From Verrucomicrobiaceae bacterium (GTDB lineage: Bacteria; Verrucomicrobiota; Verrucomicrobiia; Verrucomicrobiales; Verrucomicrobiaceae), in assembly GCA_016795365.1 (NCBI GenBank), contig JAEUHN010000047.1:124001-188000 (forward strand): a stretch of 64,000 bases of DNA, read 5' to 3'. The position numbers and the translations under genes are program-made. Under the pieces are notes generated by a model that worked only from the letters and a program-made list of their open reading frames with translations, did no database searches and was not told the DNA's origin. Shown one piece after another: positions 32,748-35,562 of this stretch (position 1 is its first letter; every line of letters starts with the position of its first letter).

Positions 32748-34139
32748 TCAGGCCTTGAGGCCAGCCACGGCGAGTTTCGTCTCTTCGTTGACGATCTTGC
32801 CACTGAGGTCGGTCTTGGTCACCGACTTGATTTCATCACGGAACTTGCGCACGAAGCTCTGTGTGGGCCACGAAGCAGCTTCGCCGAAGGCGCAGATGGT
32901 CTTGCCTTCGATCTGATTCGCCACTTGTTCGAGCATGTCCACATCGTCCGGGCTAGCGTTGCCGGCCACGATGCGATCGCTGATCTTCGCCATCCACGGG
33001 CTGCCTTCGCGGCATGGCGTGCATTGGCCGCAGGACTCGTGCTGGTAGAACTTGTTCAGGTTGTTGATCACCCAGGCCATGGAGCGCGAGTCGTCCATGA
33101 TCATCACGCCACCGGAGCCGGCCATCGAGCCGCACGCGGCCATGGTGTCGAAGTCCATCGGGATGTCCCAAATCGTCAGCTCGCGACCGTCCTTGAGCTT
33201 GTATTTCTCGTCTGCCTTCAGGACCTTCGCGGACGAACCGCCAGGGATGATGGCCTTCAGCGAGCGGCCAGGCTTCAAGCCACCGCACAGGTCGTTGATG
33301 ACCTCGCCCATCGTGACCTTGCCGACTTCGACTTCGTAGTAGCCGGGCTTCTGCACGTCACCGCTCACGCACAGGATGCGCGTGCCGGTGTTGTTCGGCG
33401 TGCCGAGCTTCGCGTATTCGGCACCGCCCATCTGGAGGATGTGCTTCACATGGCACAGGGACTCGACGTTGTTCACGATCGTGGGGCTCATGTAGAGGCC
33501 CAGCGCGGCGGGGAAATACGGCGGCTTGATGCGCGGATACGGGCGCTTGCCTTCGAGGGACTCGATCAAGCCGGTCTCTTCACCGCAGATGTAGGCACCG
33601 GCACCGCGATGCACATAGATCTCGCAGTCGAAGCCGGAGCCGAGGATGTTCTTGCCCAGGAAGCCCTTGGCACGCGCTTCAGCGATGGCCTTCTCCATGA
33701 TCTTGGCGGCGTGCGGAAACTCCTCGCGGATGTAGAGGTAGCAAAGGCTCGCCTTCACCGCGAAGGCGGAGATCGCCATGCCCTCGACCAGCTGATGCGG
33801 GTCCTGGTGCATGATGTAGCGGTCCTTGAACGTGCCGGGCTCGGATTCGTCCGCGTTGCAGATCAGGTAAACAGGCTTCGTGTTCGTCGGAGGAATGAAG
33901 CCCCACTTCACGCCGGTCGGGAAACCCGCACCACCACGACCGCGCAAGCCGCTGGCCTTCACCTCGTTGATGATCGCCTGCCGTTCCATCGTGACCGCTT
34001 TCTTCAGCATCTCATAAGCACCGTCCGCGATCGCGGTTTCAATGCTCTGATCCCAGCCCACGCGGTCCACGTTGCGGAAGATCATGCGGTGCTCGCGGGC
34101 GTGCGGCTGCTTGCCAGGAAGGTATTCGACGGAGGCCAT
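32748..34139 (-). CDS. nuoF: NADH-quinone oxidoreductase subunit F
   Basis: 463 residues, full length for NuoF. The FMN/NADH site is GLRGRGGAGFPTGVKW and CNADESEPGTFKDR; the conserved GAGAYICGEETGLIESLEG follows. Cluster N3 ligands are Cys370, Cys373 and Cys376 (SCGQCTPCREG) and Cys416 (ICAFGEA). NuoF accepts electrons from NADH and passes them into complex I, or into an NAD-linked hydrogenase module. No nuoE, nuoG or other complex I gene is next to it, so it is detached from the usual nuo operon. A Rex-like operator lies 41 bp upstream. It is the first gene of its transcript. Confidence 0.95.
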   Translation of the reverse strand: MASVEYLPGKQPHAREHRMIFRNVDRVGWDQSIETAIADGAYEMLKKAVTMERQAIINEVKASGLRGRGGAGFPTGVKWGFIPPTNTKPVYLICNADESEPGTFKDRYIMHQDPHQLVEGMAISAFAVKASLCYLYIREEFPHAAKIMEKAIAEARAKGFLGKNILGSGFDCEIYVHRGAGAYICGEETGLIESLEGKRPYPRIKPPYFPAALGLYMSPTIVNNVESLCHVKHILQMGGAEYAKLGTPNNTGTRILCVSGDVQKPGYYEVEVGKVTMGEVINDLCGGLKPGRSLKAIIPGGSSAKVLKADEKYKLKDGRELTIWDIPMDFDTMAACGSMAGSGGVMIMDDSRSMAWVINNLNKFYQHESCGQCTPCREGSPWMAKISDRIVAGNASPDDVDMLEQVANQIEGKTICAFGEAASWPTQSFVRKFRDEIKSVTKTDLSGKIVNEETKLAVAGLKA

Positions 34140-34179
34140 GCGCGATTATCCGGCCCGAGCGCAGAGCGGCAAGGGGGTT

Positions 34180-34197
34180 TTGTGAAATTTTTCACAA
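34180..34197. promoter_or_regulatory. Rex-type operator before nuoF
   Basis: TTGTGAAATTTTTCACAA is a perfect 18-bp palindrome and fits the TTGTGAA-N4-TTCACAA consensus of the NADH/NAD+-sensing repressor Rex. It is 41 bp before the nuoF ATG, a place from which a repressor would block transcription. The rex gene is not in the window. The match is read from sequence; that Rex exists in this organism is assumed. Confidence 0.75.
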
Positions 34198-34297
34198 GGG
34201 GGTGAGATCAACACGGGACACGGCGGCACTCGGCATTCAATGCGGCTTTGCAAATCGCGAAAAAGGTCCCTTCAAATTGCGAATGTGGTGTTCGGAG

Positions 34298-34370
34298 ATT
34301 GGAAGCGCAACCTCCGCGAATTGGAAGCACAACCTCCGCGAATTGGAAGCACAACCTCCGCGAATTGGAA
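34298..34370. repeat. 22-bp tandem repeat, 3.3 copies
   Basis: Three copies of a 22-bp unit starting ATTGGAAGC (34298, 34320, 34342), differing only by one base in the first copy, and a partial fourth (34364-34370). The unit reads open in several frames, so a longer open frame runs through it, but the downstream ATPase family starts at 34414. It lies between the Rex-type operator and the ATPase gene. Confidence 0.9.
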
Positions 34371-34413
34371 ATCAAACTTGCCCAAAGCTCGATTTCATGG
34401 ACATTCCAGCCCC

Positions 34414-35562
34414 ATGCAAACACGGCAGTCCGAGGCAATGATCTGGAGGCATCTCAAGCGCTTCCCAGCGGCTTGCATCGTGGGGCCGCGTCAGTGTGGG
34501 AAGACCACGCTGGCGAAGGCGATGGGCGCTCACTACTTCGACCTGGAGCACACGCCTGACCGGTTGCGACTGGAGACGCGGTGGACTGAGATGATGGAAG
34601 GCAAGGACTTGGTGGTCTTTGATGAGGCCCAGTGCTGGCCGGAGCTTTTCACCCGGCTGCGCAGCGAGATTGATGCGGATCGACAACGCAAAGGGCGCTT
34701 CCTGCTGCTTGGCTCGGTGTCGCTCGAACTCATGAAACAGGTCAGCGAGTCGCTCGCTGGCAGGCTGGCCGTAGTCGAACTGACGCCGCTTCATGCTGCC
34801 GAGTTGCCCGAGATCAACCTCAACAAGCTCTGGAAACTCGGCGGCTTCCCCGAGGGCGGCGTATTGGACGGTGAGGAGTCGTTCGACTGGCACAGCAGCT
34901 ACCTCAAGCTCATGGCCCGGCGCGACCTGCCTCAATGGGGACTGCCTGCCGAACCCGCTGTGACCGAGCGCCTGTTCAAGCTCATTGCCGCCAAGCACGG
35001 CAGCATCCAGAACGCTTCGGAGTTCGGCGCTGCGCTGGGACTTTCCCACCACACGGTGCAGAGCTACCTGCACTACCTCGAAGGCGTGTTCCTTATCCGT
35101 CGCCTTCAGCCCTACCACGCCAAGCTGAAGAACCGCCTCATCCGCACGCCCAAGCTCTACTGGCGCGACAGTGGACTGCTGCACCGTCTGCTGGGCTGCA
35201 ACGTGAAGACCGAACTCGCTGCCATGCCCTGGGTCGGCGAGAGCTGGGAGGGCTGGATCATCGAGCAAGTGCTCGCCTGCTACTCCTCTCTGGGCATTGA
35301 GGTGGAGGCGACGTTCTTCCGCGACCGCGACGGGCTCGAATGCGATCTCGTGCTCGACATCGAAGACAAACGCGAACTCATTGAGATCAAGCTGACCAGC
35401 CATCCCGCACCCGAAGACCTCACGAAGCTGCGCAAGATTCAGTCGCTCATCGGTGCCGACCGCCTTGTCTTGCTCACTCGCTGCGCAGACGTGGTGACCA
35501 CGGGTTCCACCTGGATGACGGACCTGCGCGGCTACATCGCCGCAGTGAACGCATCGAGATAA
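34414..35562 (+). CDS. AAA ATPase with DUF4143 domain
   Basis: 382 residues. Walker A GPRQCGKTT (about residues 24-32), Walker B LVVFDEAQCW, and the sensor LLGSVSLELMKQVSESLAGR mark the AAA_14 fold; the C-terminal half carries the DUF4143 nuclease-like domain with DRDGLECDLVLDIEDKRELIEIKLT (a Glu/Asp ... Glu-x-Lys arrangement). A helix-turn-helix-like segment lies between (NASEFGAALGLSHHTVQSYL). These ATPases are common, often mobile-looking, with unknown role. ATG 34414 is favoured because it begins the conserved MIWRHLKRFPA block, although the frame is open back through the 22-bp repeats. 50 bp precede the next gene. Confidence 0.88.
   Translation: MQTRQSEAMIWRHLKRFPAACIVGPRQCGKTTLAKAMGAHYFDLEHTPDRLRLETRWTEMMEGKDLVVFDEAQCWPELFTRLRSEIDADRQRKGRFLLLGSVSLELMKQVSESLAGRLAVVELTPLHAAELPEINLNKLWKLGGFPEGGVLDGEESFDWHSSYLKLMARRDLPQWGLPAEPAVTERLFKLIAAKHGSIQNASEFGAALGLSHHTVQSYLHYLEGVFLIRRLQPYHAKLKNRLIRTPKLYWRDSGLLHRLLGCNVKTELAAMPWVGESWEGWIIEQVLACYSSLGIEVEATFFRDRDGLECDLVLDIEDKRELIEIKLTSHPAPEDLTKLRKIQSLIGADRLVLLTRCADVVTTGSTWMTDLRGYIAAVNASR

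Follow-up and report, generated by a model that had tools for sequence, protein, structure and literature searches.

A perfect TTGTGAA-N4-TTCACAA palindrome (TTGTGAAATTTTTCACAA) in front of a solitary nuoF gene in a member of the Verrucomicrobiaceae is very probably a Rex operator, and one of ten through which a single regulon takes in the dispersed units of complex I, two ATP synthase operons, a polyprenyl synthase (for the quinone tail) and an alternative complex III. Rex binding, the response to NADH and repression as the direction of control are read here from the behaviour of the Rex family, and the transcription start sites referred to below are predicted ones. As the same operator stands ahead of nearly every piece of the respiratory chain and ATP synthase, it probably keeps these pieces in step, with nuoF not singled out.

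The nuoF operator and its counterparts in the host genome

The window, i.e. the whole stretch of 64,000 nucleotides that was analysed, lies within contig C3 of the 6.74 Mb host genome assembly (G000). The host is a Prosthecobacter-like member of the order Verrucomicrobiales, and those closest to it among the named relatives are MAGs of Verrucomicrobiaceae and Prosthecobacter. The features of the nuoF locus are as follows.

32748-34139, minus strand: nuoF, NADH-binding subunit of complex I, 463 aa (PF01512 Complex1_51K, 2e-49; PF10589 NADH_4Fe-4S, 4.9e-32)
34145-34150, minus strand: -10 box GATAAT of the predicted nuoF promoter, after a 16-nt spacer and ending 5 nt ahead of the ATG
34167-34172, minus strand: -35 box TTGCCG of the same promoter, 7 nt past the operator
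34180-34197, minus strand: operator TTGTGAAAAATTTCACAA (nuoF-strand reading, direct from the sequence), predicted Rex binding site, at about -58 to -41 relative to the predicted start

The palindrome is thus where the sequence-only reading had placed it, though the gap to the ATG measures 40 bp and not the 41 bp given there. A promoter scan of positions 34100-34450 returned a single sigma-70-type match, TTGCCG-16-GATAAT on the minus strand, between the palindrome and the nuoF ATG, and because its -10 box ends 5 nt before the ATG the nuoF mRNA is predicted to be leaderless. That nuoF is solitary was also correctly seen: no nuo gene adjoins it in the window, and nuoE, nuoD, nuoG, nuoBC, nuoHIJKLMN and nuoA are all elsewhere in the genome. 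In the window alone, a single match at up to three mismatches is unremarkable; the match found is a perfect one. Control of the divergent AAA/DUF4143 gene, which begins at about 34417, is unlikely, as that gene is approximately 220 bp away and the operator accompanies the nuoF promoter. Between nuoF and the divergent gene, at window positions 34298-34370, a 22-bp unit, ATTGGAAGCACAACCTCCGCGA, is also repeated 3.3 times in tandem.

Across the 6.74 Mb of the host genome the perfect palindrome is present ten times, against an expectation of 0.005 from base composition or 0.015 from a first-order Markov model, and a chance origin is thereby ruled out. The reversed pattern, used as a control, has one match in the host genome and none elsewhere in the order (141 further genomes). 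All ten perfect copies could be assigned to respiratory, ATP synthase or isoprenoid-quinone genes. The complex I units with an operator of their own are nuoF, nuoD, nuoE, nuoG, nuoB (followed by nuoC) and nuoH (followed by nuoI, J, K, L, M and N, where nuoM and nuoN were assigned by eye from the sequence and not with a profile). Two separate ATP synthase operons (L019 and L022) each have a perfect operator before atpB, a further copy precedes the multihaem cytochrome gene that is first in an alternative-complex-III-like cluster (cytochrome, Fe-S protein, NrfD), and another precedes the gene for a polyprenyl-diphosphate synthase. No operator was found at nuoA (L229, C10:213359-213664), which lies apart from all other nuo genes and behind a small unrelated ORF, and a second NuoF-like gene (C24:26616), encoding a 590-aa fused HoxF-type protein, is without a perfect operator. 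The sole copy with one mismatch (C3:213876), located between an ABC permease gene and a CAP-domain gene, was left out of the regulon.

A gene for an RRM RNA-binding protein is divergent from nuoG across a single operator in the host genome (L025 5866), and in G023 (L156 3477) the RRM protein gene next to nuoG has a separate perfect operator.

The genome was also found to include a rex homologue (PF06971, 66.9 bits, 1.3e-17). The gene is broken off after 137 codons by the end of contig C40, and PF02629 is matched at 24.3 bits on the first half of the protein; the rex genes of relatives are full-length open frames. The host fragment carries the recognition helix of the family, STQLRKDLTYFGQFGTRGLGY, and its best matches are eight Rex structures, including 3ikt and 3ikv. 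The standard N4 operator is not present upstream of rex. Instead, a palindrome with a 2-bp spacer, TTGTGAA-NN-TTCACAA, is found at the GTG start in 12 of the 13 rex genes of the family that were examined (TTGTGAA-AT-TTCACAA in G043; also L238, L234, L230 and L231, and positions 9755-9770 of L027 in the host), and it is less well conserved in some other families. This contracted palindrome may be a weaker autoregulatory site.

Distribution of the operator and rex among relatives

Among the named nuoF loci of relatives with enough upstream DNA, 45 have a solitary nuoF, and in 37 of these the operator lies directly before it, so the palindrome is conserved. None of the 32 loci with nuoE upstream has an operator directly before nuoF; in these it sits ahead of the first nuo gene, nuoD or nuoE, in 25 of the 26 loci where that DNA was covered (the exception is L107). 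The operator is placed according to the nuo unit: a nuoDEFGH unit has it before nuoD, a nuoEF unit has it before nuoE, and a lone nuoF has it directly upstream. Mismatch counts at the nuoF loci of relatives are bimodal, being either 0 or at least 4. Eight of the 45 solitary loci are without the operator, and four of the eight (L035, L037, L038 and L040) have lost it with the promoter boxes retained.

When all perfect sites were read in nine genomes from five families, 70 of 72 were found in front of nuo, atp, act, polyprenyl synthase or NDH-2 genes, and the remaining two were before the RRM RNA-binding protein gene beside nuoG and at a contig edge. Further copies upstream of redox and energy genes, which the sequence-only reading had proposed looking for, are thus the rule both here and in the host. 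The number of operators rises with fragmentation, from three to four in G005 and G006, where nuo is clustered, to ten in the host and 13 in G022. In G022 (L196-L208) the ATP synthase genes are also split, with a separate operator at each of atpB, atpA, atpG and atpD; separate operators likewise stand at nuoB, D, E, F, G, H and I and at an L/M-type gene.

In the 142 genomes of the order, host included, rex and the motif are both present in 114 and both missing in 25, three have the motif without a detected rex, and none has rex without the motif (Fisher p = 7e-25, a value that ignores the relatedness of the genomes). The 25 genomes with neither comprise one genus of small genomes together with G069 and G141. 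Since the other sampled members of the genus of G069 and G141 have both, rex and the operator were lost together in at least two independent events. G069 and G141 lack rex, and their nuoD operators have one and four mismatches, respectively, with the -35 and -10 boxes still readable; in G009 a promoter is present and the operator is absent. No rex was found in three operator-bearing MAGs (G051, G107 and G120, 90-95 % complete), perhaps due to incompleteness; in one of them, G120 (90 % complete), half of the operator at nuoF is missing and six perfect copies are kept elsewhere. At the level of the phylum the motif is essentially confined to this order though rex is common and, hence, a regulon built on this exact operator seems characteristic of the order. 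With rex in the genome, conservation before solitary nuoF genes and the joint retention or loss of rex and operator within the order, the Rex-operator reading is well supported. It also came through both checks that the sequence-only reading had set as possible refutations, a genome lacking rex and a palindrome not kept at nuoF of relatives.

Promoter geometry and alternative readings

Every one of the 54 nuo and atp sites read has a TTGC or TTGA -35 box that begins 5-7 nt past the operator, with 41 of them N7-TTGC and nine N5-TTGC, the latter mostly at nuoB. The 14 sites at act and polyprenyl synthase genes have no such box at that distance, and there the operator is near the start codon. In relatives the pattern was readable at 29 loci, and at 25 of these the -10 box ends 5-7 nt ahead of the ATG; conserved leaderless mRNAs are predicted for nuoF and nuoD, where the -10 box ends 5-8 nt before the ATG (window 34137-34150 and relatives). 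The inner edges of the N4 spacer are also constrained. As the spacer starts with A in 70 of 70 sites and ends with T in 69 of 70, the practical operator consensus is TTGTGAAANNTTTCACAA.

When NADH is low, Rex would most likely occupy the operator just upstream of the -35 box, at the predicted positions -58 to -41, and would there block RNA polymerase at sigma region 4 and the alpha C-terminal domain. A build-up of NADH would then release Rex, and the whole chain would be produced jointly. Simple repressors do not usually have operators upstream of the -35 box. This position and the near-fixed spacing would also be compatible with an activating role or with competition with the alpha C-terminal domain.

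From just upstream of the -35 box, an activating or dual Rex would contact RNA polymerase at the nuo and atp promoters, and it would repress only at the act and polyprenyl synthase genes, where the site is near the start codon. The near-fixed distance at nuo and atp (41 of 54 exactly N7-TTGC and 54 of 54 within 5-7 nt, versus 0 of 14 at the act and polyprenyl synthase sites) is what such a role would lead one to expect, and the Rex footprints in Streptomyces avermitilis instead overlap the promoter (PMC5355995). We nevertheless consider it unlikely. Rex is known as a repressor family (PMC5355995), and no precedent for a Rex activator was among the literature-search matches listed. Had an activator been lost, a weak promoter should remain, yet promoters that lost the operator along with rex look unaltered, for example in G069 compared to G095, and this persistence of a similar promoter speaks mildly against activation. 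Moreover, the nuoB sites are spaced at 5 nt and not 7, a shift that an activator working from one helix face would tolerate poorly.

A site for a CRP/FNR-type protein, with a CRP-like protein activating the respiratory genes, is less probable still, and we regard it as very unlikely. The palindrome does include the TGTGA-N6-TCACA core, matching both the half-site and the spacing of CRP/FNR sites, and clear CRP-type HTH proteins (PF13545) are encoded in the operator-bearing genomes G022, G092 and G095. However, the constrained inner spacer that gives TTGTGAAANNTTTCACAA sets the site apart, and the operator tracks rex. CRP sites are usually centred at -41.5 or -61.5, and the nuoF operator, placed from the predicted start site, is centred near -49.5 and matches neither. 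In the search for PF13545 proteins, the host has only a partial match of 27.0 bits, at cut-off level, and G005 has none above the cut-off, though both possess the operator set. The suggestion of the sequence-only reading that Rex regulates nuoF independently of the other complex I genes, through an NADH-sensing loop at the NADH entry point, is extremely improbable: nuoF is indeed alone at its locus and nuoA has no operator, but the idea fails because nearly every other piece of complex I in the host (nuoB, nuoD, nuoE, nuoG and nuoH-N) carries the identical perfect operator, as do the matching units of relatives, and both ATP synthase operons and the alternative-complex-III-like cluster share it. 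Most likely, the copy at nuoF keeps the dispersed complex I under common control.

Comparison with known Rex regulons

Control of nuo and atp operons by Rex is already known in Streptomyces (PMC5355995). The Rex regulon of S. avermitilis has been demonstrated experimentally and includes nuoA1-N1, atpIBEFHAGDC, cydA1B1CD and rex-hemAC1DB among others, with footprints at -42 to -16 for nuoA1 and -50 to -22 for atpI that overlap the -35 region (PMC5355995). The host system resembles it in the 18-bp consensus TTGTGAANNNNTTCACAA, in having complex I and ATP synthase as targets and in encoding a Rex protein. However, nuo in S. avermitilis is one operon with one imperfect site (PMC5355995), whereas the host has ten perfect sites on separate units, and the host's nuo and atp operators lie entirely upstream of the -35 box. 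The host regulon also takes in the alternative complex III and the polyprenyl synthase, and its rex is without the standard operator, again unlike S. avermitilis (PMC5355995). Fermentative Gram-positive bacteria have a similar operator and a sensor of the same Rex family, but their targets are mainly fermentation genes such as adhE and ldh (e.g. PMC6018154, PMC8389512), while those read in the host are genes for the respiratory chain and ATP synthase.

No paper on Rex in Verrucomicrobia was found in our literature search, which did not reach the main comparative study of Rex regulons. What appears to be new is the lineage, the provision of one operator per dispersed fragment of complex I, a target set that extends to alternative complex III and polyprenyl synthase, the near-fixed module of operator and promoter and, at rex, the contracted palindrome.

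More tentatively, and with slightly less than an even case for it, complex I, and in some species ATP synthase too, may have been split into single units, nearly each of them behind a module of Rex site, 5-7 nt and TTGC -35 box, such that a trans-acting NADH sensor replaced the operon in the co-production of subunits, with Rex acting from an unusual site upstream of the -35 box. This would bear on the old question of how a multi-subunit complex is kept in balance after its operon has broken up. The loss of rex with decay of the operator in at least two lineages provides natural controls, and the set of operators gives a phylum in which there has been little regulatory work a respiratory regulon that is concrete and testable.
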